Shown: in pieces, positions 1 to 32,619 of the stretch
Position numbering within the stretch: position 1 is the first letter of the stretch
Layout: every line of letters starts with the position of its first letter
Notes under the pieces: model-generated
Databases searched by the model: none
Seen by the model: the letters and a program-made list of their open reading frames with translations, nothing else
Told to the model about the DNA's origin: nothing
Virus record (IMG/VR): IMGVR_UViG_3300017786_003006
Span: 1-33,154 of that record
Length of the DNA stretch: 33,154 bases
Strand: one strand, 5' to 3'
Source: a virus
Made by a program: the position numbers and the translations under genes

Positions 1-411
1 AATAAAGAAGGACCCTTTTATGATAACTTTAAGTTTTTTATGGATTGGGTAGACGAACAAAATATCTTTAGTGAAATTGGTAGAACTTTAATATTCTATA
101 ATGACCAAGATCAGCAATGTATAACACATAGAGATCATAATCCTTTAAATAGGGTTACAGACCCAGATGAGTTTATTTGGATTAATATGTTTATGGATAG
201 GAAAGCATTTTTTGTAGAAGATAAGGATAGTAATACAAGACATTATATTAAGAGTCAAGTAGCATGGTTTGATACTGCTAACTATCACGGAAGTGATACA
301 AGTCCTTATTCTGCTTTCAGTATTAGAGTAGATGGAGTCTTTACAGACCAGTTTAAGAAAAAGATTAACTACAAACTAAAAAGTAAAAAATCAATATTTG
401 GAAACACTTAG
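1..411 (+). CDS. 2OG-Fe(II) oxygenase-like protein, 5' end cut off by the window
   Basis: The reading frame is open from base 1 (frame 1), so the start lies outside the window; the first internal ATG is at 40. The visible part has an H-x-D motif (THRDHN, about residues 43-48 of the frame), then a spaced histidine (NYHGSD) and a following arginine (FSIRVDG). This is the HxD...H...R arrangement of 2-oxoglutarate and Fe(II)-dependent dioxygenases, on a short beta-rich core. The substrate cannot be read from the sequence. Its 3' end overlaps the convergent asparagine-synthetase-like gene by 21 bp. It is one of three plus-strand genes in the window. The family call rests on metal-ligand spacing only; a cupin-like fold without catalysis is possible. 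Confidence 0.55.
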   Translation, partial: NKEGPFYDNFKFFMDWVDEQNIFSEIGRTLIFYNDQDQQCITHRDHNPLNRVTDPDEFIWINMFMDRKAFFVEDKDSNTRHYIKSQVAWFDTANYHGSDTSPYSAFSIRVDGVFTDQFKKKINYKLKSKKSIFGNT

Positions 412-1449
412 TTTTCCGTCTTCTTCATATAGATAACCCCAAGAATTATTATAACGTGTAATAGTTGGTAAACTAGGCCACTTTGTTTTGTGTATAAGAT
501 AAGTTGAATCCTCAACTACTTCATTGATAAGTTTCTTTGCCGGAAGTTTATAACTTGCCCAAGTATCTCCAAGTTTTGGTTCTTCTGTATATAATGCCCA
601 CAGTTGGAAATCTTCTGTATCAAAGAAGTTAATAATATGTTCGCACATATACTCTGCTTGTTGTTTATTTGGAGAATGCATACCCATACGATACTTAACA
701 GCCTGCCATTTCATGCTATAGTTAATCCACCATAAAAATTCATGATTAGTAGCAATATCAATAGGACTTGCATTTACTAAGTCATATAACATTTGTTCAC
801 GTTGATCTCTTGTTTCTGGGTCAGACTTATTTAATAACCAGTCTAACGAACCAGATTCCCAATCTTTATGTAAGCAATCAAACTTCCCTGTTGCATCCAT
901 ATAGCTTTTAACAGTTAGACTTCCAAATAAATTATCTGCACATTCTCCAGTAACTACACTATAACTTGGGTTAGTAATAATGTCATAAAAGTTATTACTA
1001 GAAATTAAACAATGTCCAAACTTATCTAATATAACATTATTAAAAAACTTAGGATTTTCAATTTGACTATCTTCATTGAATGCTAAGAGTATATGATCTT
1101 TAATATCCTCCCAATATGGACTAGATATCAATAAGCAAACAATTAATGTACTATCAATGCCACCTGAGTACATAATAACTAACTTTTCTTTACTTTCGTC
1201 GTTTTGAAAAGATTTAATAATGTTAGTCATTCTGCTAACAGAACAACTTTCAAAACTTTCTGGAGTTCTTTTTTCTGGTATTGGACTATTGTTAAAAACA
1301 TCTACTCCTAAGTCAAGTGTACCAGTCCTGTCACTTAAACTAATCCAAGGATTAAACATACCTAAAAAGTCTCGTTGTATATTGCTAATATTAGCTCCTT
1401 TACCAGAGTTAAGTATTCTATGCGGAATATAGTATAATAAATTTTTCAT
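391..1449 (-). CDS. Asparagine synthetase C-domain-like ATP pyrophosphatase, no glutaminase domain
   Basis: 352 aa. An ATP-pyrophosphatase P-loop (YSGGIDST, about residues 94-101) is followed by GECADNLFGS, which matches the GxGADExFGG loop of asparagine synthetase (AsnB) C-terminal domains. A W-rich helical tail (FLWWINYSMKW) is also typical of that family. Bacterial AsnB has an N-terminal Cys2 glutamine amidotransferase domain; here the first 90 residues show no such domain, so any amide or amine donor would be ammonia or another protein. In related families this domain adenylates a carboxylate and forms an amide. It starts within a TAATG overlap with the upstream unknown gene, which suggests coupled translation. 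It lacks the zinc-binding Cys cluster of QueC, so I do not call it QueC. Confidence 0.7.
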   Translation of the reverse strand: MKNLLYYIPHRILNSGKGANISNIQRDFLGMFNPWISLSDRTGTLDLGVDVFNNSPIPEKRTPESFESCSVSRMTNIIKSFQNDESKEKLVIMYSGGIDSTLIVCLLISSPYWEDIKDHILLAFNEDSQIENPKFFNNVILDKFGHCLISSNNFYDIITNPSYSVVTGECADNLFGSLTVKSYMDATGKFDCLHKDWESGSLDWLLNKSDPETRDQREQMLYDLVNASPIDIATNHEFLWWINYSMKWQAVKYRMGMHSPNKQQAEYMCEHIINFFDTEDFQLWALYTEEPKLGDTWASYKLPAKKLINEVVEDSTYLIHKTKWPSLPTITRYNNSWGYLYEEDGKLSVSKY

Positions 1450-2078
1450 TACATTAACATGCTCACAAATGATTCTTCGGCTAACGTTGCTCGAATATCC
1501 TGAACATCCTCTTTAGTTTTTATAGTATTAATTGCCATTTGTGTTTTAATTCGAATTCTTTCTAATTTCATTATTTGGAATTTTAGATTATCTGCTTTTG
1601 CTATAACTAGATTAGCAATAGTTTCTAAAGGAAGTTTTCTAAATTGTGCCTCATCTTGTATAAAACCTATATCAGATGTATCTCCTTTAATAACACGTCT
1701 TGCTTGTTCTTCTTTTATTAGATATGCCGTTTCTTGCCAAGGAACAAGACTTTGGAAACGTTTATATCCATGCTCTAATCTTTGATGAAGCTCTTTTGTT
1801 AACATTACTCTAGCAAGAAGTTTTTTGCTCAGTATTTCAGTATCATTGTCTCGATCTTCTTCGTCAACAAATTTAGTAGTTCTAGCATCAATATATTGTA
1901 ATTTATAATTAAGTTTATTAGAACGAAGTAATGCAAGTTCTTCTCCAGTTACACCATACACTCTACATATGGCACGAAATTCTCCAGAGCAAGCCTGTTC
2001 TAATGTATTTAAATCTGAACACCAAGCCAGTATACTGTTTTCAGCAGTAGTGGCTAAAGCAACCCAATGTTGTTCCAT
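1449..2078 (-). CDS. Unknown protein, 209 aa
   Basis: No family recognised. The N-terminal 60 residues are mixed (W, C and L rich) and the rest is mostly charged helix, with a predicted helical stretch near residues 155-195 rich in K, I and L. The start is supported by GGAG eight bases before the ATG. The stop shares one base with the next start (TAATG), so it is translationally coupled to the asparagine-synthetase-like gene. Compact and soluble, with no signal peptide or membrane segment. A structural or accessory role cannot be told apart. Confidence 0.6.
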   Translation of the reverse strand: MEQHWVALATTAENSILAWCSDLNTLEQACSGEFRAICRVYGVTGEELALLRSNKLNYKLQYIDARTTKFVDEEDRDNDTEILSKKLLARVMLTKELHQRLEHGYKRFQSLVPWQETAYLIKEEQARRVIKGDTSDIGFIQDEAQFRKLPLETIANLVIAKADNLKFQIMKLERIRIKTQMAINTIKTKEDVQDIRATLAEESFVSMLM

Positions 2079-2115: not shown

Positions 2116-3099
2116 TTAATCTTGTCTAACCAATTTTGCACCTGGGATAATATCTCCATCACATAACATATCCCATGGATGTTTTTTCTCGTAGAATTCG
2201 TTTTGTGTCCAAGTTTGGGTTTCTTCATTGAAGTCAAACCACGGAGCAACACCTAACATAATATGTGTACGGAAAAAAGGCTCTTCTGGTCTCTCTGAAC
2301 AATAAGCACGATGAGGAATACCTGTGTCCCAACTATATGCATACGGTGCTTCTAAGTGAATTAGTTTTCCTACGTTTGTTTGTTGCTCTAGTACAAACTC
2401 TTTAGATGTTTTAATAGCAATATTAATTCTTAAATTGTTAAACATCATTTCGTCTGTGTGCCACGCAACACCTGGTCTTTGTGTTGCACGTTCTGCTCCC
2501 TTTTGACCCATTGCTTGTGTAGAACCATGAGAAGAAATTATACGAAGACTAGATCTAACCATACTTCTTTTTAAACTATCTAAGAATGTTCCTAAGTATC
2601 CATGCTTACTACCTTCTGTACGAAAAGCCATGCTATAAGTATCATAATGTGTATCTTTTCTTACTGCAATTTTTCTAGCCTCTGATTGATCCATTCTACT
2701 ATAAGGACTAACACGACCATCTCCAGACTTTGCACCAAACTCCTGCTTAATATGCTTAAAGTGATTTCCTTGCACTTGTTCATGTGGGTCTGTTTCAATT
2801 CCGTCAATATGCAAAGGATTATATGTTAAGCCCATTCCTAAATAACCAGTATCACTTTTTAATGATCCATCTGGTCTTTTACCTCTTAGTCTATACCCAA
2901 ACATACCTACATTATCTAAAGCCTCTAAAGTATCTTTGATTAATAAGTCTGTATCTGTTTCTGTTAATTCTAGTTTAATTAAACTAGGATAAGGTTCTCG
3001 AGGTTGTAACGTGCTTTTCATAAAAGGGGCTCTTCTATGCAAAGAGTTAGCGACAGGTATTTCTTCTGCCGCATCTGATAATTTTAAAGATATAGTCAT
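2116..3099 (-). CDS. 2OG-Fe(II) oxygenase-like (aspartyl/asparaginyl hydroxylase-type) protein
   Basis: 327 aa. The C-terminal half carries WHTDEMM (H-x-D, about residues 214-216) and, about 50 residues on, GIPHRAYC followed by an arginine in FFRTHIMLGV. This is the HxD...H...R set of a double-stranded beta-helix dioxygenase, nearest in style to AspH-like hydroxylases. The N-terminal half (residues 1-150) has no family I recognise. The start is fixed by AAGGAG five bases upstream. It lies directly downstream of a second oxygenase-like gene on the same strand, with a gap of 21 bp, so the two are probably cotranscribed. Phages commonly carry such enzymes, with known members acting on proteins, nucleobases and small molecules; the substrate here is unknown. 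Confidence 0.6.
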   Translation of the reverse strand: MTISLKLSDAAEEIPVANSLHRRAPFMKSTLQPREPYPSLIKLELTETDTDLLIKDTLEALDNVGMFGYRLRGKRPDGSLKSDTGYLGMGLTYNPLHIDGIETDPHEQVQGNHFKHIKQEFGAKSGDGRVSPYSRMDQSEARKIAVRKDTHYDTYSMAFRTEGSKHGYLGTFLDSLKRSMVRSSLRIISSHGSTQAMGQKGAERATQRPGVAWHTDEMMFNNLRINIAIKTSKEFVLEQQTNVGKLIHLEAPYAYSWDTGIPHRAYCSERPEEPFFRTHIMLGVAPWFDFNEETQTWTQNEFYEKKHPWDMLCDGDIIPGAKLVRQD

Positions 3100-3120: not shown

Positions 3121-3702
3121 TTATAACCATTTTAAATCTGGCGTAAATCGAATGGAAAGCATTACTCTAGGTTTTTCCTTGCATAAGTTAATTGCTTGAT
3201 GTGGAACATCAATCCTAACTAAGTGAGGATCCTTAATAGTTACAGACGCAATTAGTTTTGGCTCTCCGTCCCATTCAAGTTTTAAATATTTGTTAGAGTT
3301 TGTTTTTCTTCCCATTACAGTTGCATCTGCTATTTTTTGAACCTCTAATCTGTACGGAGCTTCTCCGTACCAATCCATACTACCAATACCAGTATTACGA
3401 ATTGGAATATTTAATGCATAATTTGATGCACCTGATCTGTCTGCTCTAAAACCATCAATATGTAGGCCTTGTGCCTTATCTTTACCTAACACAAAAATTA
3501 ACCCAGACTTCAAACTTAAACCATTCCAAACTGGATGCGGATTTGCCTTTATAAATTCATCTATTATTTCATAAAAGTTATATTCGGGTGATTGAATTGT
3601 TACTGTTTTATTAATTTTATGTACATACAAAGCCTTATTAATTCTAAACACTAAGTCCTCAATATTAGGAATATCGTCAATTTTTTGAAAAAGTTTTTCC
3701 AT
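3121..3702 (-). CDS. Second 2OG-Fe(II) oxygenase-like protein
   Basis: 193 aa from the ATG at 3702. GLHIDGF (H-x-D), DVPHQAINL (distal H) and RVMLSIRF (basic residue) fit the metal and 2-oxoglutarate ligands of the family, and the core FVLGKDKAQGLHIDG has the expected strand order. An in-frame TTG at 3732 would add ten residues; neither start has a clear ribosome binding site, so the start is uncertain. It is divergent from the plus-strand hydroxylase gene and heads a two-gene run with the AspH-like gene. Small size (about 190-200 aa) matches short phage dioxygenases. Confidence 0.55.
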   Translation of the reverse strand: MEKLFQKIDDIPNIEDLVFRINKALYVHKINKTVTIQSPEYNFYEIIDEFIKANPHPVWNGLSLKSGLIFVLGKDKAQGLHIDGFRADRSGASNYALNIPIRNTGIGSMDWYGEAPYRLEVQKIADATVMGRKTNSNKYLKLEWDGEPKLIASVTIKDPHLVRIDVPHQAINLCKEKPRVMLSIRFTPDLKWL

Positions 3703-3753
3703 ACTACTACTTATCGGATTAACTAAAATCAATTAACCAAATAAATAGCAGTA

Positions 3754-4215
3754 ATGATACACATGATACTCACATTTTTGTTATGGACCTTATTACTTTA
3801 TATTATACATAGGGTCATTCATGTTCACGGACGTAGATGGTTTCCTGTGTCTTTTAAAGCTCATAACGATCATCACAAATATATTAACACCACTGGCGGA
3901 ACACAATGGCATTGGAATAATTGTTTTCTGTTTAACGATACCTGGTTATCAACTTTAGATCTTTGGATTACAGAAGTTGTTCCTACTTTAATCTTTAGTT
4001 ATATAACCGGAGAATGGTGGGTTAGTATTGCATACTATTTTTGGGCCGCTTTCTTACAAGAAGTAATTGAACACAATCCTAAATTTAGTTGGTATCCAGC
4101 AATTACATCTGGAAAATGGCATTTAGTACATCATGCAGAGCCTTATAGAAACTATGGATTATTTGTTCCTATTTGGGATTTATTATTTGGTAGTTACAGG
4201 GCATACTCTAAATAG
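3754..4215 (+). CDS. Fatty acid hydroxylase / sterol desaturase superfamily membrane protein
   Basis: 153 aa. It has the histidine clusters that hold the di-iron centre of this integral-membrane superfamily: HRVIH near the N-terminus, HNDHH, and WHLVHH near the C-terminus. It also has hydrophobic segments at about residues 4-20, 75-88 and 90-103. The family hydroxylates or desaturates lipids (carotenoids, sterols, fatty acids) at the inner membrane; the small size is like bacterial beta-carotene hydroxylase-type members. One of three plus-strand genes, overlapping the convergent neighbour by 8 bp. A NATAAATA octamer (3740-3747) stands so close that a transcript would be almost leaderless. An in-frame ATG at 3763 is an alternative start, and neither has a Shine-Dalgarno. 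Probably a host-derived lipid-modifying gene. Confidence 0.75.
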   Translation: MIHMILTFLLWTLLLYIIHRVIHVHGRRWFPVSFKAHNDHHKYINTTGGTQWHWNNCFLFNDTWLSTLDLWITEVVPTLIFSYITGEWWVSIAYYFWAAFLQEVIEHNPKFSWYPAITSGKWHLVHHAEPYRNYGLFVPIWDLLFGSYRAYSK

Positions 4216-7217: not shown

Positions 7218-8417
7218 TTACCTTTTAGGCATATAGTTTGCCGTAATACCAAAAGGTGCTTTAATAGTTTCGTTACCATGTACTACAAACAATGTATCAC
7301 AATAATTTTCGTCTCCCCATGATCCCCAAGGGTAACCATCAGTAAGTACTACTAGTTGATGCGGTGTAACGTCATTATATTTAAGCCACTCCCAGATACA
7401 GTCAAAGTCCGTTCCGCCACCACCTTGTATTGCATACTCGGACATATCACGTCCATCATCTTGTGTAAAATTATCTTCGTTGTACACACTGGTATCAAAC
7501 GTAATAACTTTAACATTATAAGCATCGAACTGATCCAATGACCCTTGTACAATACCTAAGAAGTCTGATAGTGTGCTATCCCAAATACTACCTGAGGCAT
7601 CGAGTGCAATAACAACATCTAACTGCTCCCCTGGAAGATTACCCGGAAGTACTGCACCAGTATGCCAACCTTTTCTGTTAGGTCGCATCCAAGTGTAATC
7701 AGACTTTAACGAACTGCTAAACTGAATTTGAAAAAGCTCACGAAGATCTAATACTGGCTCAGTAATCTGTTTAACAAGACGTTTAACTTCACCAGGTACA
7801 TTACTAGCACCTGCTTTATTAACTGCATCAATTACTGCTTCTTTCCACTCGTTTCTTAGAGCTTTTTTTTCTTCTGAAGAAAGTTTTTTAAACTTAGGCT
7901 TTCCGTCACTACTGTTACCACCTTGTCCTTGTTGCTCATCGCCCTCACCATCTAGGTCTAAATGATCGTCAAGTGTCTGTTGCACTTCGGCATTATTATC
8001 AAACAGTTTATCATATACTTCATCAGCAGTATGATTTTCATACTGACGATCAACTAGTATAGGAACAGTAGTAATTGTTTTACCTACATTTTCTCGAACA
8101 AGCATATTATTGATAATATAGTCACCAGCCATATTCCATAGCCCTGGATCTCTATTACCACGCCTTGTCATATGTTCGTAAATAATATGTCCAACTTCGT
8201 GTGCAAACCCAAATACACATTCTTGATCATCTAGTTTTAATACAAACTCTGAGTTATAATAAAACTTACGACCATCAGTAGCAATAGTTTGACACCAAGG
8301 TGCTTCTTCTAGTACTAGTCTAGCACTCAAAGGACCCCAGAAAGGATACTTTAGAAGCATAGTAATTCTTGCTTTGATTAATTTTTCTTTTGCTTTTTCT
8401 GCGATATCTTGGGTCAT
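7218..8417 (-). CDS. DUF2201-type metallopeptidase-like plus VWA domain protein (MoxR partner)
   Basis: 399 aa. The N-terminal domain has HEVGH (residues 73-77), a zinc HExxH motif, followed by the LWNMAGDYIINN element typical of DUF2201 putative metallopeptidases. A polar linker (residues 150-185) leads to a VWA-like C-terminal domain with a MIDAS motif DASGS (residues 273-277) and a later GGTDF. Such proteins pair with MoxR AAA+ ATPases, and one is encoded 1.3 kb upstream on the same strand. The start at 8417 has GGAG six bases before it; an upstream in-frame ATG (8456) has none. It has its own promoter at 8447-8475. A chaperone or assembly role for the pair is family knowledge; the client is unknown. 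Confidence 0.8.
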   Translation of the reverse strand: MTQDIAEKAKEKLIKARITMLLKYPFWGPLSARLVLEEAPWCQTIATDGRKFYYNSEFVLKLDDQECVFGFAHEVGHIIYEHMTRRGNRDPGLWNMAGDYIINNMLVRENVGKTITTVPILVDRQYENHTADEVYDKLFDNNAEVQQTLDDHLDLDGEGDEQQGQGGNSSDGKPKFKKLSSEEKKALRNEWKEAVIDAVNKAGASNVPGEVKRLVKQITEPVLDLRELFQIQFSSSLKSDYTWMRPNRKGWHTGAVLPGNLPGEQLDVVIALDASGSIWDSTLSDFLGIVQGSLDQFDAYNVKVITFDTSVYNEDNFTQDDGRDMSEYAIQGGGGTDFDCIWEWLKYNDVTPHQLVVLTDGYPWGSWGDENYCDTLFVVHGNETIKAPFGITANYMPKR

Positions 8418-8446
8418 GTGTGGCTCCATTTCCTTATTGTTCTTAT

Positions 8447-8475
8447 AATATAGCATATGTTGGCCCTAAGGTCAA
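8447..8475 (-). promoter_or_regulatory. Sigma70-type promoter for the VWA gene
   Basis: On the minus strand, TTGACC (-35, 8475-8470), a 17-bp spacer, then TATATT (-10, 8452-8447). The start site would be near 8440, giving a leader of about 23 nt with GGAGCCACAC before the ATG. Confidence 0.8.
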
Positions 8476-9377: not shown

Positions 9378-9692
9378 TTAACACCAATCCGGTTGTGTCT
9401 GTATTTGATCTGGTTTAGATAGATCCCATAGCATAGCATCCTCATCTTTCCTAAACCAAATTTCATGTTTAGTATAATCATAATCTAATTGTTTTAAATT
9501 ATTATCTTTGCACCATTTCTTTAACCGCCATCTGGGTATCAGCTCAGTAGAGCGGCAGGACCAGCCAGTTCGTTGTTTGCGGAGCCACTCGCTAACTTCC
9601 GAAGATTGAGGAGGCTGGTCCTGCCATATTGTTCGAGCATCTGGGCCATATAACTTATCGCTTATAGCCCAGTCTCGAATTCTTTTAGTCAT
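9378..9692 (-). CDS. Unknown protein with an in-frame GC-rich palindromic segment
   Basis: 104 aa, overlapping the MoxR stop by 8 bp and abutting purS. No family recognised; the flanks are basic and W-rich. The middle (about residues 23-52) is encoded by a visibly GC-rich stretch holding a perfect 13-bp inverted repeat, and translates to WQDQPP ... GWSCRSTEL. Codon use there is unlike the AT-rich neighbours. This suggests that an element inserted without breaking the frame, or an RNA-level structure overlapping the gene. The outer parts (KRIRDWAISDKLYGPDAR and LKKWCKDNNLKQLDYDY) look like an ordinary small phage protein. Confidence 0.5.
   Translation of the reverse strand: MTKRIRDWAISDKLYGPDARTIWQDQPPQSSEVSEWLRKQRTGWSCRSTELIPRWRLKKWCKDNNLKQLDYDYTKHEIWFRKDEDAMLWDLSKPDQIQTQPDWC
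9554..9625. repeat. Perfect 13-bp inverted repeat with a tRNA D-arm-like flank
   Basis: GGCAGGACCAGCC (9554-9566) and its exact reverse complement (9613-9625) enclose a 46-nt, fairly GC-rich loop. Just outside, on the plus strand, is CAGCTCAGTAGAGC (9540-9553), which looks like a tRNA D-arm (GCTC/GAGC stem). The whole lies inside the 104-aa gene. No anticodon arm or T-arm fits, so it is not a tRNA. Confidence 0.6.
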
Positions 9693-10794
9693 CTGTTAGC
9701 AAGTTTGCATAACGTTTAAAGAATTCCGGGAAGTTTGTCATTTTCTTACGATCAAAAATCACCTTATAATTTTTAAGAACAGTATGAGCACCCATGATAA
9801 CCATTTCGGGTTCAAAGTTTTCCATACAAAAGCCTAACCAATTATCAGCGGCCTTATTAAAGTCCTCATTTTTGCCAGAACGTTTAGCATCTTGATACTT
9901 TGTTCTAAGTTCGTAACACAATGAAACAACCAATGCATATGTAGCCGATACTTCTTTAGAATCAAACTTGGTAACCTTACCACTAAGTACATCTGCTGGA
10001 TCTGGAAGATCTGCGGCATGCTTACGGTGAGACATAAATTTAATTGCAATGCCTTCGCTTACAAGACCTGATACCATATCAGTATTAGCACTTTCTGACA
10101 TATCGTCGTCAATCATATCTGATACAAAAGCCCAGGTACGAGGAGTAGCAAAAGCTCTGTCGTGCATTGTAGGATCAAAGTTAAAAAGATCACCTTTAAA
10201 CTGTTTCAAGTAACCAACAACCTGAGGATGAATAGCATTATCAATTGCCCACATCTCCCAGTCATCAAAGTCAACTCTCAACTCAATATGCAAGAATCTA
10301 TTTGCTAATGGACTAGGCATCCTATAAGTAACACCTTTATCACCAAGTCTATTACCTGCGGCAATAATTACAACATTATCTGGCAAGTGATAAGATCCAA
10401 CTTTACGATTAAGCACCAATTGATAAGCCGCGGCTTGTACTGCTGGAGGAGCACTATTAAGCTCGTCTAAGAAAAGAAAAATAATTTCATATTCTTTAGC
10501 AGTTTCTGCATTAGGCAATTCTGCTGGAGGTGCCCATTTCATAGTATTATCGTTAGCGGAGTAATATGGAACACCTTTAATATCTGTAGGGTCCATAAGT
10601 GCCATTCTCATATCAATAACAAGACTGTTATCAAATTCATTTGCAACTTGATCAACCATATCCGATTTACCAGAACCTGGAGGTCCCCAAATAAACACAG
10701 GACGTTTCTTGTTAACTGCTTTACGGATAATTGGCTTACACTCGCTAATTTTTAGAGTGTTTGGCTCATTTACTTTAGTTTCTGCTTGTCCCAT
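9685..10794 (-). CDS. MoxR-type AAA+ ATPase
   Basis: 369 aa. Walker A GPPGSGKS (residues 37-44), Walker B FLFLDELNSAP (Asp110-Glu111) and sensor 1 IIAAGNR (Asn148) are all present, in the compact arrangement of MoxR/AAA_5 ATPases. These act with VWA-domain partners as chaperones or in metal-centre and complex assembly. The VWA/HExxH gene lies downstream on the same strand, so the pair is probably a functional module. AAGGAG and a promoter at 10835-10863 fix the start. All catalytic residues look intact. Cytoplasmic; the target in the infected cell is unknown. Confidence 0.85.
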   Translation of the reverse strand: MGQAETKVNEPNTLKISECKPIIRKAVNKKRPVFIWGPPGSGKSDMVDQVANEFDNSLVIDMRMALMDPTDIKGVPYYSANDNTMKWAPPAELPNAETAKEYEIIFLFLDELNSAPPAVQAAAYQLVLNRKVGSYHLPDNVVIIAAGNRLGDKGVTYRMPSPLANRFLHIELRVDFDDWEMWAIDNAIHPQVVGYLKQFKGDLFNFDPTMHDRAFATPRTWAFVSDMIDDDMSESANTDMVSGLVSEGIAIKFMSHRKHAADLPDPADVLSGKVTKFDSKEVSATYALVVSLCYELRTKYQDAKRSGKNEDFNKAADNWLGFCMENFEPEMVIMGAHTVLKNYKVIFDRKKMTNFPEFFKRYANLLTDD

Positions 10795-10834
10795 TATGTG
10801 GCTCCTTATATGGGTTAATTTTAATTATGTTACT

Positions 10835-10863
10835 ACTATACACACCTTATGCAGAAAGGTCAA
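10835..10863 (-). promoter_or_regulatory. Sigma70-type promoter for the MoxR gene
   Basis: TTGACC (10863-10858), 17-bp spacer, TATAGT (10840-10835) on the minus strand. The -35 box lies within the 3' end of the 102-aa gene. The leader of about 34 nt has AAGGAGCCACATA before the ATG. Confidence 0.8.
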
Positions 10864-11155
10864 CCTCTTTTTGCATATTTTCTGAAATATTTTCAATTAC
10901 AACTACAGGGGTAACCATATCAACAAATGAACTAGCAAGAATTTCTTCTTTGTTCATTGCATAAGGAAGTTCAATAAACTTAACGTCAGTAAAACCATTA
11001 CGGACCAAAGTTCGTGTACGCCTCTTGTCATTTGAGAAACGAAGTTTACCTCGACCCTTTTTACTGGTAGCAAAACCAACAAATTTAAATGTTTCACCTT
11101 TGGCAACTTCTTCAATTGCCGCTTCGAGAACTTCATTAGTAACGATATCTGACAC
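10847..11155 (-). CDS. Unknown small protein with GTG start
   Basis: 102 aa. The GTG at 11155 has AAAGGAG six bases upstream and is a better start than the TTG at 11182, whose extra codons contain that Shine-Dalgarno. The middle is basic (TSKKGRGKLRFSNDKRRTR), which could bind nucleic acid, and the C-terminal third is hydrophobic-acidic. No family recognised. It stands alone behind its own promoter (11213-11241), and its 3' end carries the MoxR promoter. Confidence 0.6.
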   Translation of the reverse strand: MSDIVTNEVLEAAIEEVAKGETFKFVGFATSKKGRGKLRFSNDKRRTRTLVRNGFTDVKFIELPYAMNKEEILASSFVDMVTPVVVIENISENMQKEVDLSA

Positions 11156-11212
11156 TTTAATCTCCTTTAATTTAATAACCAATTACGCCATTCGCAACTG
11201 CATTATGTATAT

Positions 11213-11241
11213 AATATAACACACAGGTCCTAAAAGGTCAA
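11213..11241 (-). promoter_or_regulatory. Sigma70-type promoter for the 102-aa gene
   Basis: TTGACC (11241-11236), 17-bp spacer, TATATT (11218-11213) on the minus strand. The predicted leader is about 51 nt. It stands downstream of two tandem terminators, so it restarts transcription. Confidence 0.8.
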
Positions 11242-11302
11242 CCTTTTTCTGGTTCTTTTTTTATTTTTTTTATTCTTCAATGATTACAATAACTTAGTCA
11301 CG

Positions 11303-11335
11303 AAAAAACCCGTATACATTGTAGTATACGGGTTT
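11303..11335 (-). terminator. Intrinsic terminator, 12-bp perfect stem
   Basis: On the minus strand, AAACCCGTATAC, a 6-nt loop and GTATACGGGTTT form a perfect 12-bp stem. The T-run starts inside the stem's end and continues (11308-11303 all T on that strand). Second of two terminators behind the acidic-protein gene. Confidence 0.85.
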
Positions 11336-11360
11336 AATAACTCGCCAAAACTTAGGAGAT

Positions 11361-15712: not shown

Positions 15713-15720
15713 TATTTATG
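15713..15720 (-). promoter_or_regulatory. Late-promoter-like octamer for the lipoprotein gene
   Basis: CATAAATA on the minus strand, overlapping the queE stop; start site expected near 15707, giving a leader of about 45 nt. Seven of eight match to the T4 late consensus. Confidence 0.4.
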
Positions 15721-16603
15721 TTCCTATAGCATTTCCAAACAAATAAACATGCACTCTTGCCGCCACATTATATCCTCGTTTGAATGCTCTTTCTGCAATA
15801 GCACCTGCCGTTGCAGTTTGTTCTTCTTCTCTTGCACCAACAGGCATAACCCAAACTGGCCATTTTACTCCTGCTTTTCTAAATTGTGCAATTACACTTT
15901 CCATTTCTTGCCAATGTTCCTCCTTATCACCTACTACAAACTTTAATTGACCTGCTTTAGATAAATTATAATACTCTGCTACATTGTCTGGCTTAATAGC
16001 CTTCTCAGGCTTCTCACCTGCTACTGTCCATAGTTTTGGACTGACACTAAAAAATATTTCAGTATCAATTGACTCTACCCAATTCTTAAAATCGTCACTT
16101 AGTTTCTGTGTACCATTAGTTTCAAATGTCATACTACCTGGTAAGTTACTTTGTCTATGCAGTTCATTGTATATTCCAATAACTGCACGTTGTCCAGTAA
16201 TCATAAGTGGTTCACCACCTGTAATACATAAATGTTGTCTATATTGAGAAACTGGATGTAGGAATCGTCCTTCTGGATTACTATCTGTTCTAATAATATC
16301 AATAATTTTATTTGCTAATACATCAGGCTCTTCATGTCCCATTAGGCTTTTAAACTTCTTTGCCCAAGTATAACTACTGTCGCAACCTTTGTCCCATACA
16401 GGTAAGTCTTCAACTCTGTCTACACTAGATACATCAAAGTCCTCAAAAGGCAACTCATATGTGCTAGGGTTTGTAGGATCTATCTGACCAAATCCATTGC
16501 ATTGTAAGTTACATAAAAAGAAACGTATCCAAGCAGTAGGAACACCAGTATAATGTCCTTCACCTTGTATACTGTGAAATATCTCACTATAATAGTATTT
16601 CAT
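15716..16603 (-). CDS. queE: 7-carboxy-7-deazaguanine synthase (radical SAM), QueE
   Basis: 295 aa. The N-terminus SEIFHSIQGEGHYTGVPTAW is the QueE signature, and TGGEPLM is the SAM-binding GGEP motif. QueE rearranges 6-carboxytetrahydropterin to 7-carboxy-7-deazaguanine (CDG). The cluster-binding cysteines are unusual: Cys31-x3-Cys35 is followed by about 38 extra residues before Cys74 in GCDSSYTW, which matches the CDTxYxW normally two residues on. So the usual Cx3Cx2C is split by an insertion, and the protein is longer than bacterial QueE (about 220 aa). GAGGAG and a TTGACT/TATAAT promoter (16625-16653) precede it. With FolE, the QueD-like protein and DpdA it forms a DNA-modification pathway. 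Confidence 0.85.
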   Translation of the reverse strand: MKYYYSEIFHSIQGEGHYTGVPTAWIRFFLCNLQCNGFGQIDPTNPSTYELPFEDFDVSSVDRVEDLPVWDKGCDSSYTWAKKFKSLMGHEEPDVLANKIIDIIRTDSNPEGRFLHPVSQYRQHLCITGGEPLMITGQRAVIGIYNELHRQSNLPGSMTFETNGTQKLSDDFKNWVESIDTEIFFSVSPKLWTVAGEKPEKAIKPDNVAEYYNLSKAGQLKFVVGDKEEHWQEMESVIAQFRKAGVKWPVWVMPVGAREEEQTATAGAIAERAFKRGYNVAARVHVYLFGNAIGT

Positions 16604-18293: not shown

Positions 18294-18686
18294 TTATTCC
18301 TCTTCGTTGTTAGTAGGTCCTGATAGTAGTTTTTCCATTGCTTTGTACTCTTGGTATAATTGTTTTAGTCCTTCAAACTTTTCATTTAATTCTAAGTTGG
18401 GTTCTAGAATAGCAAGACGTTTATTAATAGCATCTAACGATTTGTTAATCTTGTTAATAGCTTCGCTACTTTCGTTATATACAGGAGCAAATGCATGACT
18501 ATTATTCCAGCCAATGTCTTCCGTTGTTGTGAGCACAGGTACTGTACCAATTGTTTCATTGGAACCTGTATCGTCAAATGTTACAGTAGATGACACCTCA
18601 AGTTTACGTTTAGACATATCCTGTTCTCCAAATTTTCTAGAATATACTGTTTTTCCTTTATCAGGACTTTCAAATATTTTAGTCAT
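18294..18686 (-). CDS. Unknown protein with a C-terminal coiled coil
   Basis: 130 aa. It begins [20 protein letters not shown], a start I recall in small T4-like cyanophage proteins of unknown function. The C-terminal half (NESSEAINKINKSLDAINKR) is heptad-like, so it may oligomerise. The start lies in a TAATG overlap with the folE stop, so it is coupled to folE. Confidence 0.6.
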   Translation of the reverse strand: MTKIFESPDKGKTVYSRKFGEQDMSKRKLEVSSTVTFDDTGSNETIGTVPVLTTTEDIGWNNSHAFAPVYNESSEAINKINKSLDAINKRLAILEPNLELNEKFEGLKQLYQEYKAMEKLLSGPTNNEEE

Positions 18687-19366
18687 TAGTTCTTGGGTTT
18701 ATTAAAGATATTCATAAATTCAGTTCTAACAGCTGGGTCGGATTTAAATACACCGCCTAGTTTACTAGTAACAGTAGAACTGCCAGTATCCTCAACACCA
18801 CGAGACTTAACACAATAATGTTGTGCATCAATAACTACCGCAACACTTTCAGTTTCTAAGATAGCTTGTAAAGCATGAAATACTTGTTCTGTTAAACGTT
18901 CTTGAATCTGAGGACGTTTAGCAAAGTATTCTACAATACGATTAATTTTAGATAACCCTAATACTTTTTGATTAGGAATATAACCTACTGTAGCAAGTCC
19001 ATCAATAATAACAAAATGATGTTCACAGTTACTTTGAACATTAATATTACGTTCTACAACCATTTCATCATATTTCATTTTATTGTCTACGGCTGTACAT
19101 TTAGGAAATGCTTCGTAGTCTAAACCCCAAAAGATTTCGTTTACATACATCTTAGCAACTCGCTTAGGTGTATCCATTAAACTATCATCTGTTAGATCTA
19201 GTCCTAATGCTTCCATAATTTTAATGAAGTGTTTTTCAATTATTTCAATCTTGTCTGTACGACTTAGATTGTTATCTATACTCGGAGTTTCAACTCCTTG
19301 CTTAACTAGATATTCGTGGATTGATTGTCCCAGAGCGGGATCGGTTTTAGTTTTATTATAAGACAT
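18686..19366 (-). CDS. folE: GTP cyclohydrolase I
   Basis: 226 aa, length like E. coli FolE (222). Zinc ligands in NCEHHFV (Cys114, His117) and [10 protein letters not shown] (Cys185), plus the substrate-loop [20 protein letters not shown], are all present. The enzyme converts GTP to 7,8-dihydroneopterin triphosphate, the first step of both folate and 7-deazaguanine synthesis. In this window its partners are QueD-like, QueE and DpdA, so a DNA-modification role is the natural reading. GGAAGG precedes the ATG. Transcribed from a promoter at 19454-19482, with an 80-nt leader that carries a small hairpin. Cytoplasmic decamer in the family. Confidence 0.95.
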
Positions 19367-21362: not shown

Positions 21363-22379
21363 CTATGCATAATCCTTAAACCTCTGAGAGTTGTACCAAG
21401 CCCATGATGTTCTAATAATATTATCTAGAGACGAATTGTCTGCTTTCCAACCAGCAGTACTTTCTATTTTCTTAGAACTAGCCACTAACCTCCCAGGGTC
21501 TCCAGGTCTCCTAGGACCTTTGTGAACTAATAGTTTTTTGTTAGTATGTCTTTCAATAGTGCTAATAATTTCTTTAATAGAGTAACCTTTACCAGTACCT
21601 AAATTAAAGTAATCAAACTGTCCAGGTTTAAAAGTTTTACCAAGTTCATATGCAACTCTATGAGCTTTAGCAATATCTTCTACATGTAGATAGTCTCTAA
21701 CACAAGTTCCGTCTGGTGTGTCATAGTCAATACCATTTAATGTAAACACCTCTTTATTAATTAAAGCATTCATAACTTTTGCAATTAAATGAGTAGCAGA
21801 TTTTACTTGTCCATGTCTAACTTCTTTATCCGCTCCGCAAGCATTAAAGTAACGTAATGCTATTGCATTAAATCCATATGCTTTTGCACAATCCTCAATA
21901 ACTTTCTCAGCCATTAATTTACTCATACCGTATGGACTAGGAGGAATGGTTTCAAATGTTTCTCTGATACTTTGATTCTGTTTAGGGTCTGTATCTGAAT
22001 AAACAGCCGCTGAGCTTGAAAATACAAATGTTCCTTTGAAACCAATAGTGTTTAATGCTGAAAGAAGCTTAGATGTTCCTCCTACGTTATTAATGTAATA
22101 CTTAGAAGGATCAAGTACACTAGGACCAACTAAACTTTCTCCAGCAACATGAATAAATGCAACAGGTTTAAGCTGTCTTAGTTGATGTAAAAACATTCCA
22201 TTTACATAATCACCTGGTATAAAAGAATCTATATGTTCTTGCAACCAGGAACCAGTTGATTGGTTTCTATCAATACCAAGTATTTTATATCCTAATCTTT
22301 TAAATTCTAAAACTGTCTGACCACCAATGTAACCATTGCATCCAGTAATAGCAATCCATTCATCTCTTTCTTGTTGCAT
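21363..22379 (-). CDS. galE: UDP-glucose 4-epimerase-type SDR (GalE-like)
   Basis: 338 aa, length equal to E. coli GalE (338). NAD-binding TGCNGYIG (residues 12-19), the catalytic pair Tyr150-x3-Lys154 in SPYGMSKLMAEK, the Ser before them (SSSAAVYS), and C-terminal motifs RYFNACGA and RRPGDPGRLVAS are all GalE-like. It would interconvert UDP-glucose and UDP-galactose, or the N-acetyl forms. GAGG eight bases before the ATG. Downstream of the glycosyltransferase on the same strand, so the two likely serve one glycan, of the virion, the DNA or the host surface. Confidence 0.9.
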   Translation of the reverse strand: MQQERDEWIAITGCNGYIGGQTVLEFKRLGYKILGIDRNQSTGSWLQEHIDSFIPGDYVNGMFLHQLRQLKPVAFIHVAGESLVGPSVLDPSKYYINNVGGTSKLLSALNTIGFKGTFVFSSSAAVYSDTDPKQNQSIRETFETIPPSPYGMSKLMAEKVIEDCAKAYGFNAIALRYFNACGADKEVRHGQVKSATHLIAKVMNALINKEVFTLNGIDYDTPDGTCVRDYLHVEDIAKAHRVAYELGKTFKPGQFDYFNLGTGKGYSIKEIISTIERHTNKKLLVHKGPRRPGDPGRLVASSKKIESTAGWKADNSSLDNIIRTSWAWYNSQRFKDYA

Positions 22380-24682: not shown

Positions 24683-25219
24683 TTATATAGGTTTATCGTT
24701 TTTATATTCACACCAGGATGTAAAATTCTTTCGGTTCATTAAACTGTTCAAACTATGACACCATATTCCTGGATTAGTATCATCAAAATCTGTATCGTCT
24801 ATCTTAACTGTTGTATTATAGTTAAGGCTTTCTACATTCGGAAGTTTTACCGAAATCATTGGAATGAACCTATTATAGTTATTTAATTCTGTTCCTTGAA
24901 AACAAGTTAAACATTTAATGTCTATATCTAGTGTACAATAAATCTTAGTACTTGTCAAGACATTTTTAATCATAGTTTCCCATTCTTTCCAAATATTAAT
25001 TGAATCCAATGTTATAGCAGTAGGATTAGGAAAACTTTGATTTGCTCCAAAGTAAATGGCTTCGCAATTCTTTTCTTCTGCCATCTTTATAATATCTTCT
25101 GAAGGATGTACTCCAACTACAAATAATGTCATTAATCCAAATGCAGGAGACCTTTCGATCTCTATACCAGTAAAAAACTCAACATCATCTTTTACTCCTA
25201 CTTGATAGTCTCTTTTCAT
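24683..25219 (-). CDS. Unknown protein coupled to the DpdA-like gene
   Basis: 178 aa. No family I can name with confidence, though it resembles proteins of unknown function seen in marine T4-like phages. VEFFTGIEIERSPAFG, TLFVVGVHPSEDI and EAIYFGANQSFP suggest an alpha/beta fold. Cysteines cluster at KIYCTLDIDIKCLTCFQG and further at GIWCHS and SWCEY, possibly a metal site. Its ATG shares a base with the stop of the DpdA-like gene (TAATG), so the two are likely translated together. Possibly an accessory to the DNA-modification pathway; that is inference from position only. Confidence 0.65.
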   Translation of the reverse strand: MKRDYQVGVKDDVEFFTGIEIERSPAFGLMTLFVVGVHPSEDIIKMAEEKNCEAIYFGANQSFPNPTAITLDSINIWKEWETMIKNVLTSTKIYCTLDIDIKCLTCFQGTELNNYNRFIPMISVKLPNVESLNYNTTVKIDDTDFDDTNPGIWCHSLNSLMNRKNFTSWCEYKNDKPI

Positions 25220-26766
25220 TATTCAACTCCTATGACTAGTTTTTCAAGTTCTGCATCATTAGGATCATCAAACGCACCTGCCTCTGCAATAACTTCAGTT
25301 GTTTCTCCATCGTCTGTATCAAATAAATCGTTAACTGAATCAGCACCAGTTTTACGAGTCTTACGTCCAGAAAACTCAGTCATTAATGGTATACATTGAT
25401 CAAGTAGTTTATACGGTTCTTCACTTTTAAATACCATATCAACTAGTTCCATCATGTATAATACATTACGAGGAACCCAAAGATCAACTTGACCTTCTTG
25501 AGTTTTTTGTCTAGTCTTTCTCCATTGTCTAGGATCAGGATGTGTTTGTTGCCAAGCAATGTCTGCTAATACATTAGCTCTTTGAACAGATTGTATATGC
25601 TGATCCACGTTATGTGCCATAATCAAACTATAAGAAAAGGTATCCCAGCTTGTTTTAGCAACTTTCCCATTTTTGTTAGCCTGCCCTGGTTTATAGTAGC
25701 AGACATCTCCCATTGTAATTCGGTCACCAACTGCTGACGACCAAGGCCACGGAATAGTACTTCCGCTAAAGTCTCTATTATCAACAGCCTTTTCCATTAC
25801 ATAAGTCATACGTTCGTTTGTGTGTACATGTTGAGTGTAAGATAAGCCGTATGCCGTGCTAACGAATGGAGATGCACAGTCGTATGTTAAGAGTAAGTTC
25901 GGATTGACAGTTGCCTTTAAGGCTCTTTGTACCGCCGTTAAAAAGATTGCCCATTCCAATCGACTTGTTCCAAGTACATGAATAACATCTTTACCTGGTT
26001 CAAGCATTCCTTCGTCACGCATCTGAATTAATCTACGAAGCAATAGGTGGGCATCTTGCATATTATTACCACCCATCGCCCAACCTTCAAACGGGAAGTG
26101 TTTTACATTTTCATACCAAATATCTGCTTCTTCATTTGTACTACCTTGTAATACATTTAGAAACTTTGTTTGGTTCTTTCTATTAGCCATAAACCATGCA
26201 TTGTTATACAACGTACCGTCTAGGCATTGTTGAAAACTCTTTAGTCCAGTACGTTCATTCAAAGGAGGCCTAGCCGCCCAAGTCGGAATATCAAGTACCA
26301 TAGAGTAATCAGCAGTATGCTCAAGCCAATTTAAAATTTGCCCTCGAGTTTTATCTGCACTTCCTTTGTAACCTTCATCACCTGGACGTTCCATAAAGTT
26401 TTCCCAGTCAAATTTAATTACACCTTTTGCAATCTGAAAACCACCAGAGTCACCTAAGATAAAAGTATCTTTGCGATCTCTCTTTTGGATCATACTTTCC
26501 ATAGTATCAGTTTTACTTAGATCTAACTGAGCATGTCCAGCAGAGTAAAGTGCATAAGGATAATAGAAGTATGCGTCTTTTTTATTTAAGAAATTTAATC
26601 CTTCAATACCAGTTTCAAAACCAGCTGGAACACGTTCTGGTGGAACACTCTTGCCCGGCTCGTTTTGTTCTTTACTTACTATTGTAGAATAGAATGTAGA
26701 AATACTAGGTAAGAAGACTGCATAGTCTTTATTAGTAGTCCACAGATCAGTTTTATTTGTTGTCAT
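25219..26766 (-). CDS. dpdA: DpdA-like DNA 7-deazaguanine transglycosylase (TGT family)
   Basis: 515 aa. TGT-type barrel motifs are present in order: ILGDSGGFQ (Asp106), MVLDIP (Asp159), FLNVLQGST (residues 202-210, as IVQGG), GWAMGGN (as AIGGL), HVLGTSRL, and TYDCASPF (Asp296, as the FDCVLPTR nucleophile). tRNA-guanine transglycosylases swap guanine for a 7-deazaguanine base; the phage branch, DpdA, does this in DNA. The protein is longer than bacterial TGT (about 375 aa), and I see no TGT C-x-C-x2-C zinc cluster after the nucleophile, which fits DpdA rather than a tRNA enzyme. AGAGG before the ATG. FolE, QueD-like and QueE in the same window supply the base precursor. Which 7-deazaguanine is inserted is not visible. 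Confidence 0.85.
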   Translation of the reverse strand: MTTNKTDLWTTNKDYAVFLPSISTFYSTIVSKEQNEPGKSVPPERVPAGFETGIEGLNFLNKKDAYFYYPYALYSAGHAQLDLSKTDTMESMIQKRDRKDTFILGDSGGFQIAKGVIKFDWENFMERPGDEGYKGSADKTRGQILNWLEHTADYSMVLDIPTWAARPPLNERTGLKSFQQCLDGTLYNNAWFMANRKNQTKFLNVLQGSTNEEADIWYENVKHFPFEGWAMGGNNMQDAHLLLRRLIQMRDEGMLEPGKDVIHVLGTSRLEWAIFLTAVQRALKATVNPNLLLTYDCASPFVSTAYGLSYTQHVHTNERMTYVMEKAVDNRDFSGSTIPWPWSSAVGDRITMGDVCYYKPGQANKNGKVAKTSWDTFSYSLIMAHNVDQHIQSVQRANVLADIAWQQTHPDPRQWRKTRQKTQEGQVDLWVPRNVLYMMELVDMVFKSEEPYKLLDQCIPLMTEFSGRKTRKTGADSVNDLFDTDDGETTEVIAEAGAFDDPNDAELEKLVIGVE

Positions 26767-31821: not shown

Positions 31822-32619
31822 TTATTTTTGGTCATTTAACCGAAATATATCCTGTTCGGAACAGTTAGAACCATATTGTATTTCAATAATTCTAAGTAAG
31901 CTATTGGTTTCATTAGATAACATATGCCATTGGTCCTGATTTATATGTAAGGAGGAGTGCATTGGAAAATGGCCAATTAGTTCTTGGTCTGAACTTATAT
32001 CAAGTGTATAAACTGTTGCTTCACCTTCTGCAACAAACCAATGCTCGGCTCTATCTTTATGTCGTTGCATAGAAAGACTTTTCCCTGGCTCGACTGTTAA
32101 TTCTTTAACTTTTGTTGTTTTTAAATCTCTATGTACCGTCCAGGCACCCCAAGGACGGTGTTCTGTTTGTGTATTGTGTTTACCCCATCTGTACAATAAC
32201 TCACTGCTAGAGTTAGTTTTTTCTTCTCCACCAACACCCCATGCAAATGTAATGTTAGTAATGTTCGACTCCGGTACATTATTGGTAGTACGGTCACCAC
32301 CATTTGCAAATATGATTTCATTATCCGGAAAAGTTTTCTTTACATGATCTATTAGTTTACATGCAGTTCCATCACTATCATCAAATTCCATAGCAGAGTT
32401 AACCATATCTAAAGAATTTAGAATATCAAGTCTTTCCTTTATATTTTGAAAATTTTTTCCTTTTTTTATTCCTAGCCATTGATCCGAATTAACACCAACT
32501 AGCAGATATTGTCCTAACTCTTTTGCTCCTTTAAGTAACTTTAGATGTCCAGAATGCAGAGGATCAAACCCTCCGGATACTATAACTATACGTTCATTTG
32601 GTCTTGGATACGGATGCAT
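31822..32619 (-). CDS. Nucleotidyltransferase fused to a mannose-6-phosphate isomerase-type cupin
   Basis: 265 aa in two domains. Residues 10-145: cytidylyltransferase-like, with GGFDPLHSGHLKLL (His22, His25) and NSSSELLYRW in the place of the ISSTxxR motif. Residues 150-262: a cupin like the C-terminal domain of ManC/AlgA, with EHRPWGAWTV, VEPGKSLSMQRHKDRAEHW (His187, His193) and WHMLSN (His232). ManC carries its transferase domain as a different GT-A-like fold, so this fusion joins HxGH chemistry to the sugar-isomerase cupin. Probably makes an activated sugar or polyol for a surface polymer. AAGGAG ten bases upstream; a GATAAATA octamer at 32651-32658. Confidence 0.8.
   Translation of the reverse strand: MHPYPRPNERIVIVSGGFDPLHSGHLKLLKGAKELGQYLLVGVNSDQWLGIKKGKNFQNIKERLDILNSLDMVNSAMEFDDSDGTACKLIDHVKKTFPDNEIIFANGGDRTTNNVPESNITNITFAWGVGGEEKTNSSSELLYRWGKHNTQTEHRPWGAWTVHRDLKTTKVKELTVEPGKSLSMQRHKDRAEHWFVAEGEATVYTLDISSDQELIGHFPMHSSLHINQDQWHMLSNETNSLLRIIEIQYGSNCSEQDIFRLNDQK

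Follow-up and report, generated by a model that had tools for sequence, protein, structure and literature searches.

A stand-alone asparagine-synthetase-type domain of uncultured phages, encoded in the setting of the adsorption apparatus

Introduction

What would a phage amidate with an asparagine-synthetase-type enzyme that has no glutaminase? This question is raised by a 33 kb virus record of IMG/VR (IMGVR_UViG_3300017786_003006; its 33,154 nucleotides are called the window here), where the minus-strand gene at 391-1449 encodes P0001, hereafter ASN, a protein of 352 residues. ASN is a stand-alone asparagine-synthetase-type, AMP-forming domain, its family is large in uncultured phages and the recurrent setting of this family is the adsorption apparatus, so that a virion polypeptide is tentatively favoured below as the substrate, ahead of glycans, DNA bases and free amino acids.

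Sequence and fold of ASN

The open reading frame (ORF) has an ATG start, the protein opening with MKN, and is conserved among relatives, with 64-86% identity to close kin and 15-44% to distant kin, which marks it as a genuine gene whose motifs did not arise by chance. The first-pass annotation had described an asparagine-synthetase-type domain with its ATP-pyrophosphatase and GECADNLFGS loops kept and its N-terminal amidotransferase missing, and this description holds. The SGGIDS loop of the ATP-pyrophosphatase (PP-loop) lies at residues 95-100 and GECADNLFGS at residues 168-177, and in the alignment of 77 members (A6) S95, G96, G97, D99 and S100 (SGGxDS) are invariant, with G168, E169 and D172 kept in 71, 62 and 69 members, respectively. 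The core is preceded by approximately 65 residues, residue 2 being a lysine with no catalytic cysteine, and a Pfam search gave no profile match to an N-terminal nucleophile (Ntn) glutaminase. Outside the loops, R41 (76/77), E131 (74/77), W240 (75/77), W248 (74/77), Q282 (74/77), K321 (75/77) and K323 (74/77) are conserved, and the signature specific to the family comprises R41, W240, W248, F275, Q282, W284, K321 and K323.

Pfam recognition of the family is faint, ASN itself reaching Asn_synthase (PF00733) with an E-value of 0.022 and 14.8 bits, below the gathering cut-off of 21, followed by NAD_synthase (0.24) as the other entry listed, and 40 of the 77 members matching PF00733 at E ≤ 0.1, the best at 1.1e-4. 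Comparison with solved structures by sequence or profile gave nothing informative past the PP-loop. The predicted structure, an AlphaFold2 model built with 76 relatives, has a predicted local distance difference test score (pLDDT) of 95.9 and a predicted template modelling score (pTM) of 0.93. Aligned with VIA-align, it matched first TsnB9 (Z 12.7, 271 residues, 5.2 Å), then beta-lactam synthetase (Z 12.0, 202 residues, 3.6 Å), human ASNS (Z 11.6, 199 residues, 3.5 Å), carbapenam synthetase (Z 11.2) and E. coli AsnB (Z 11.0), the matches of this class spanning Z 9.8-12.7 across 183-271 residues, with GMP synthetase as the best of any other class (Z 6.8). As the global fold matches the asparagine-synthetase class first, ASN was assigned to it. 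Foldseek returned nothing from the PDB below E 0.001, human ASNS being the best at 1.3e-3, and a viral structure library gave six matches below 0.001; those with a name are phage proteins, and three carry the label 'Asparagine synthase'.

Regarding the catalytic residues, Glu169 aligns, with low confidence in a weak alignment, with the catalytic glutamate of the GEGxDE-type loop of E. coli AsnB, Glu348. The C-terminal catalytic lysine of that enzyme is Lys449, and the structural alignment of ASN stops near K323, as judged from the aligned ranges.

A large phage family with a coupled partner

Successive family searches gave 3 loci in a first scan, 20 with a small profile, and 32 and 80 with two further profiles, the last scan covering the best 80 of 195 stretches encoding a relative (195 before dereplication). 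The working set holds 75 dereplicated loci with 91 family genes, more than one copy being present in 13 of the 75, and its first 23 loci are L001-L022 plus the window. The family is thus large, and its members come mainly from uncultured phages: of the 50,697 phage records with a name, the sole match was Pseudomonas phage Cygsa01, at two places annotated MnmA, which was again the sole named record when its own copy and those of L021, L022, L100 and L065 served as queries. One contig of a bacterial metagenome-assembled genome also carries a family gene (L022, JAHFMX010000003). Databases name these proteins 'asparagine synthase' or 'MnmA', so that they could be mistaken for enzymes that metabolise amino acids or modify tRNA. 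A literature search that left out subscription journals and most preprints gave, among the papers listed, no description of the ASN family, of its partner or of its fibre and radical S-adenosylmethionine (SAM) company described below. The chemistry class is already known, as is a short phage member, CmoY.

Directly upstream of ASN on the same strand lies the gene of a 209-residue partner, U (1449-2078, minus strand), whose stop overlaps the ASN start as TAATG. U stands at this -1 position for 55 of the 91 family genes, in 53 of the 75 loci, 52 of the 55 overlapping the ASN gene or sitting within 10 nt of it. The proteins are mostly of 200-270 residues and fall into two homologous sequence clusters (hhalign probability 97.4). 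The model of U is confident (pLDDT 95.9), with an alpha/beta N-terminal part and a long-helix C-terminal part; the window's U was not matched by Pfam, had a single weak PHROG match, to a family of unknown function, and gave no clear fold match in the PDB, and at E 0.1 NCBIfam gave no match for it or for the U of L100. Such gene coupling suggests a complex or a chaperone/substrate pair. The bacterial contig (L022:2-358 and 10668-11360) has both U and a family gene, and about 10 kb further along it carries a direct repeat of the C-terminal part of U, seemingly a duplication or an artefact of assembly.

Setting among tail fibres and Cys-tail cassettes

Three to five genes upstream of ASN and on its strand, ten of the 75 loci encode a protein whose C-terminus is rich in Cys, five of these tails being exactly NCNCNC and five being mixed NC/DC/AC repeats, on proteins of which some are long fibres and others small; Cys-tailed proteins lie, for example, at L065:3096-4208, L083:2896-4083, L100:4696-5799 and L125:4955-5371. 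All ten loci also have a radical SAM/SPASM gene, located between the tailed gene and ASN in nine and after ASN in L063. When two of these radical SAM proteins were compared with NCBIfam, maturase models for ribosomally synthesized and post-translationally modified peptides (RiPPs) were matched (PapB, 4e-20 and 6e-15), both proteins being far under the maturase-model cut-offs yet over that of the SPASM domain. In four of the ten, a TRAP solute-binding protein takes the place of U at -1 (NF037995, 4e-33 in L083). As a separate observation, genes for solute-binding proteins stand at -1 of a family gene in L083 (6795-7739) and five other loci, the A8 members including TctC (three) and SBP_bac_3 (one), and the TRAP DctP of L083 has no visible signal peptide.

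The tail and radical SAM pair was also searched for independently of ASN, by scanning IMG/VR for NCNCNC followed by a stop; 80 of 107 stretches were read and 66 were true ORF ends (L172-L251). A radical SAM gene followed in 40 of the 50 with at least 1.5 kb of downstream sequence and in 28 of the 33 with at least 4 kb, and a family gene followed in 10 of these 33, all counted before dereplication, and the upstream control gave 0/53 and 0/37. Among 42 distinct ends, radical SAM was found in 30/36 (1.5 kb) and 22/27 (4 kb), and the ASN family in 10/27 (4 kb). Four of the ten hits with the family (L063, L065, L080 and L084) were already in the set and six are new. The NCNCNC end with its radical SAM gene is a RiPP-like virion cassette independent of the ASN finding; under the literature limits given above, such NC-repeat fibres were likewise not found described, and a single, unrelated paper joins radical SAM, phage, RiPP and tail fiber.

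A fibre neighbourhood is found by other routes as well. Cygsa01 and L021 carry two family genes with a small ORF between them, and the first of the two is immediately preceded by genes for a glycine-rich adhesin-like protein and for a fibre that ends in Peptidase_S74. Outside the T4-like clade to which the window belongs, 148 of 268 other neighbour clusters were scanned, nearest first and within 120-1000 residues, giving 265 PHROG families; 18 of the 25 listed carry a description that names a tail fibre, a tail or a baseplate. Within that clade, ASN of G002 borders a block in which PP-loop, GNAT-like and desaturase-like genes and glycosyltransferase-like genes lead on to fibre-like ORFs (18.4-20 kb), an ORF of 2,981 residues and a gp6 baseplate wedge that scores 47 bits against its S-B43 counterpart, several gene names in the block having been read by eye. 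This block resembles the pelagimyophage host recognition cluster, in which fibres occur together with glycosyltransferases and radical SAM cassettes (PMC7029224). The adsorption apparatus is, as observed, the recurrent setting of the family.

In a tree of 85 proteins, the Cys-tail setting requires two changes and the fibre-adjacent and T4-like settings one each, and the Cys-tail rows form one group in no bootstrap tree. As the well-supported branches force one change only, 59 rows fall in no group and long branches meet, the Cys-tail setting may still have had a single old origin. The T4-like rows of the window, 12 in number, form one clade with support 99/96.

Achromobacter phages JWF and 2-1 offer a parallel in cultured phages. 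Both carry a radical SAM protein of the cassette type, 44 and 43% identical to that of L100, shortly after a fibre with a Cys-rich tail that continues in frame into a Hint domain; the JWF fibre reads ...NCNCDCNCNCS-CFPAGT..., with its Hint domain annotated, and 2-1 has a shorter form. Such Cys-tail/Hint fibres lie at L315:5793-7244 (JWF), L316:3802-5244 (2-1) and in L317-L320, L320 being probably JWF again, and in the available DNA a radical SAM gene is near the fibre in five of the six loci and the ASN family is in none. By analogy, the Hint domain could leave an activated C-terminus, as an acyl-adenylating enzyme would with ATP.

Proposed function

ASN is best explained, although this reading stays somewhat short of an even chance, as serving the adsorption apparatus, with a virion polypeptide (the tail fibre or its partner) as the likeliest substrate for amide formation because of the tail-fibre setting. 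The activity, this substrate and the chemistry of the product are what we infer; for the window's own clade, the substrate class would be an extrapolation from relatives and from position. The first-pass annotation had also looked for a role beyond asparagine, and that part stands, as amide formation on another substrate is the likeliest chemistry and has a precedent in CmoY.

Enzymes of this class adenylate an acid and then let an amine attack. Thus, ATP and a carboxylate would bind at the PP-loop, the acid would be adenylated with pyrophosphate leaving, and an amine or ammonia would attack the acyl-adenylate, helped by K323 and, where it is kept, by E169. Without a glutaminase of its own, the amine would be free ammonia, a small amine or a side chain; glycine as the acceptor amine has the CmoY precedent (PMC12783734), and a side-chain amine would yield a lactam or a cross-link. 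U, as a dedicated partner made together with ASN, would present or shield the substrate.

A wider scheme, which we regard as doubtful, is that in many tailed phages the phage's own tail fibres serve as substrates of a RiPP-like kind, by a joint use of radical SAM modification and carboxylate activation, of which the window would hold a branch. At the tip of the fibre, the radical SAM/SPASM enzyme would modify the Cys-rich NC-repeat tail, whose C-terminal carboxylate would then be activated as an acyl-adenylate by an ASN-type enzyme or, in phages like JWF, as a thioester by the Hint domain following it. The ASN of the window would be a branch of the family for a different virion substrate, recognised via U, beside oxygenases. 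If virion proteins are modified, phages tailor their receptor-binding parts with enzymes of the natural-product type, and named isolates exist for both halves, Cygsa01 for the ASN family and JWF and 2-1 for the pair of Cys-rich tail and radical SAM.

Several observations weigh against the virion polypeptide. The window's clade, whose records are incomplete, has no Cys-rich NC-repeat tail in its available DNA and no SPASM-type radical SAM neighbour; a six-frame search of the clade for Cys-tails listed only noise among its matches, with no glycine-rich or fibre N-terminus among them. In G002, approximately 12.5 kb and several metabolic-type genes separate ASN from the fibre-like genes, and 17 of the 27 distinct NCNCNC ends with 4 kb of sequence lack the family. 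The counts of the neighbour scan stand without a control of random phage genes and are supportive only, each PHROG being matched by only two or three of the 148 proteins, with those of Cygsa01 and L021 among those scanned. In addition, U is without an assignable function, and Glu169 is replaced in 15 of the 77 members, so that part of the family, judged by sequence, may act otherwise.

Alternative explanations

The strongest rival to a virion polypeptide is a glycan: ASN would amidate a sugar of the uronic-acid type or some other small carboxylate on the surface of host or virion, together with the neighbouring glycosyltransferase-like genes, which we consider unlikely but closest to competing. 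Enzymes of the asparagine-synthetase type act in this way in O-antigen clusters. Glycosyltransferase-like genes, read by eye, share the block of ASN in the window's clade, and the window has genes of the sugar-nucleotide type at 21363-22379 and 31822-32619, also read by eye, the latter encoding a fusion of nucleotidyltransferase-like and cupin-like parts. Epimerase-like and glycosyltransferase-like genes are likewise carried by the window. Against this, the glycosyltransferase setting was noticed in the T4-like clade only, and no glycosyltransferase was noticed beside ASN in the Cys-tail cassettes, Cygsa01 or L021, in both cases with no systematic search. Moreover, to our knowledge, the known sugar-amidating members carry a glutaminase domain. 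From the literature, glycosyltransferases are present in the pelagimyophage host-recognition clusters (PMC7029224) and a viral 'asparagine synthase' was filed under nucleotide sugar biosynthesis in a virome study (PMC12285232).

It is more improbable that ASN is a distant counterpart of CmoY that forms an amide on a carboxylated base of DNA. CmoY of phage S-B43, a 271-residue asparagine-synthetase homologue, is described as ligating glycine to 5-carboxymethylcytosine in DNA (PMC12783734), and the window itself holds DNA-modification genes, namely those of a QueE-like 7-carboxy-7-deazaguanine (CDG) synthase (15716-16603, minus strand; phrog_2076, 5.4e-53), of FolE, GTP cyclohydrolase I (18686-19366, minus strand; PF01227, 2.7e-63) and of a DpdA-like transglycosylase (25219-26766, minus strand). 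However, among the 3,623 ORFs of the collected loci no homologue of CmoX or CmoY was found by phmmer at E 0.01, with two weak matches only to CmoA (L118 and L136), and CmoY meets the family profile at the PP-loop only, though Pfam recognises it at 52.5 bits. A carboxymethylcytosine ligase of the CmoY type was set aside as improbable, as neither homologue is in the collected loci.

Less probable still is that ASN binds its ligand without catalysis or is a PP-loop enzyme of another chemistry, for instance one that transfers sulfur or forms nitriles. Among solved structures compared by profile, the best E-value belongs to LarE, with nitrile synthetase weak, and both match at the nucleotide loop only; on the other side stand the global fold of the asparagine-synthetase class and the near-complete retention of K321 and K323.

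The first-pass annotation had further raised the idea that ASN acts on the carboxyl group of CDG in place of QueC, with co-occurrence with dpdA phages lacking queC as a check; this idea is not supported, and a QueC replacement was judged very unlikely. It is true that the window and some close kin have QueE, FolE and DpdA with no QueC over the cut-off, and that weak matches to QueC-type profiles exist at the PP-loop, as in the E-value of 0.0077 of the ASN PP-loop region to the PHROG 'QueC-like', and PF06508 (QueC) is matched by one of the 77 members, at 8.1e-4. However, Pfam gave no QueC match for P0001, and CxxCxxC, which forms part of the QueC zinc signature C(x)8CxxCxxC (PMC13329287), is in 0 of the 77 members. 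QueC chains are absent among the VIA-align matches listed for ASN, which excludes nothing alone.

Co-occurrence was followed in both directions. The 22 records with the ASN family had no QueC over the cut-off, three being sub-threshold, and no QueD; QueE-profile matches were in 10 of the 22, although in two of these, G006 and G008, the match was confined to the other radical SAM ORF, and DpdA was in two of the 20 tested, in addition to the window. The DpdA-like protein of 25219-26766 has a DSGGFQ motif and had no Pfam or PHROG match; it is matched by 23 phage records, one annotated 'TGT domain-containing protein'. Conversely, among 19 long DpdA-bearing records, picked for length from 36 loci found and including G018, known beforehand, six have the ASN family, all with a DpdA at least 79% identical to that of the window, and DpdA contigs of 245, 233, 215 and 148 kb are without it. 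QueC exceeds the cut-off in none of the 19, the 233 kb record giving one weak match at 17.7 bits against the required 22, so that a proper queC is not seen in DpdA phages of the window's type, whether they carry the ASN gene or not. In addition, complete Cygsa01, which has two ASN copies and is not among the 23 records matching the window's DpdA, gave no QueE, QueC or QueD match; therefore, the ASN gene does without the deazaguanine pathway there. CDG may be a substrate in the window's clade alone, and the results argue against the tempting link of ASN to deazaguanine DNA.

An ammonia-dependent asparagine synthetase for amino-acid supply, suggested by the same fold class and by Glu169 with its weak alignment to the catalytic glutamate of AsnB, is the least credible, given the multicopy loci (13/75), the pairing with U, the tail-fibre setting and the 15 of 77 members that have another residue in place of Glu169.

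Other genes around ASN

The convergent neighbour at 1-411 (plus strand) is the 3' part of a gene of approximately 250-290 residues in relatives and, by motif reading only, 2-oxoglutarate/Fe(II)-oxygenase-like; it is present in 20 of the first 23 loci, and its product had no Pfam match and one weak PHROG of unknown function. Upstream and co-directional with ASN, two further oxygenase-like genes, again by motif reading only, lie on the minus strand at 2116-3099 (4 of the first 23 loci) and 3121-3732 (17 of the first 23). They are followed at 3754-4215 by a small protein of the fatty-acid-hydroxylase type (PF04116, 1.2e-12), kept in 20 of the first 23 loci, and the window has, read by eye, a pair of a MoxR-type ATPase and a VWA-type protein at 7218-8456 and 9685-10794.

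In seven relatives of the window's clade, the gene order is PP-loop, GNAT-like, desaturase-like, U and ASN, with an extra ORF before U in two. A second PP-loop family (SGGLDSE; L001:14231-15178, cluster 5) is near ASN in 18 of the 75 loci, often beside GNAT-like and desaturase-like genes. In three loci of the window's clade, a different, shorter radical SAM gene, of approximately 290 residues, stands 4-9 kb upstream, namely in L007 (174-1052, 292 residues, PF04055 1.4e-7), L009 (3386-4258) and L019 (613-1491), with none there in the window, and it is unlike both QueE and the SPASM enzymes.

Comparison with known systems

ASN shares with AsnB/ASNS, beta-lactam synthetase, carbapenam synthetase and TsnB9 the fold, the SGGxDS motif, the GE..D loop and a conserved C-terminal lysine. 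Unlike this group, it has no Ntn-glutaminase, falls below the Pfam cut-off, bears a signature of its own and is encoded with U. Among enzymes that make an amide in a ribosomal peptide, the lasso-peptide cyclases of the McjC type belong to the asparagine-synthetase class; their putative likeness to ASN is one of class.

QueC and the QueC-type protein ligases QatC and Cap9 are PP-loop ATPases that act on a carboxylate, and the two ligases are able to modify a partner protein (PMC13329287). ASN differs from QueC, QatC and Cap9, as it lacks CxxCxxC, its fold ranks with the asparagine-synthetase class and QueE and DpdA are not needed, as seen in Cygsa01. CmoY of Synechococcus phage S-B43 is, like ASN, a short phage homologue of asparagine synthetase, reported to be an AMP-forming amide ligase (PMC12783734); unlike CmoY, ASN is of 352 and not 271 residues, the similarity is at the PP-loop only and no CmoX gene is in the collected loci.

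Finally, the Cys-tail cassettes recall RiPP maturation of the PapB, CcpM and SCIFF types. The putative precursor differs from those systems in being partly a tail-fibre protein, and no such pair was seen within the clade of the window; like them, 10 of the 75 loci pair a radical SAM/SPASM protein with a Cys-rich tail.

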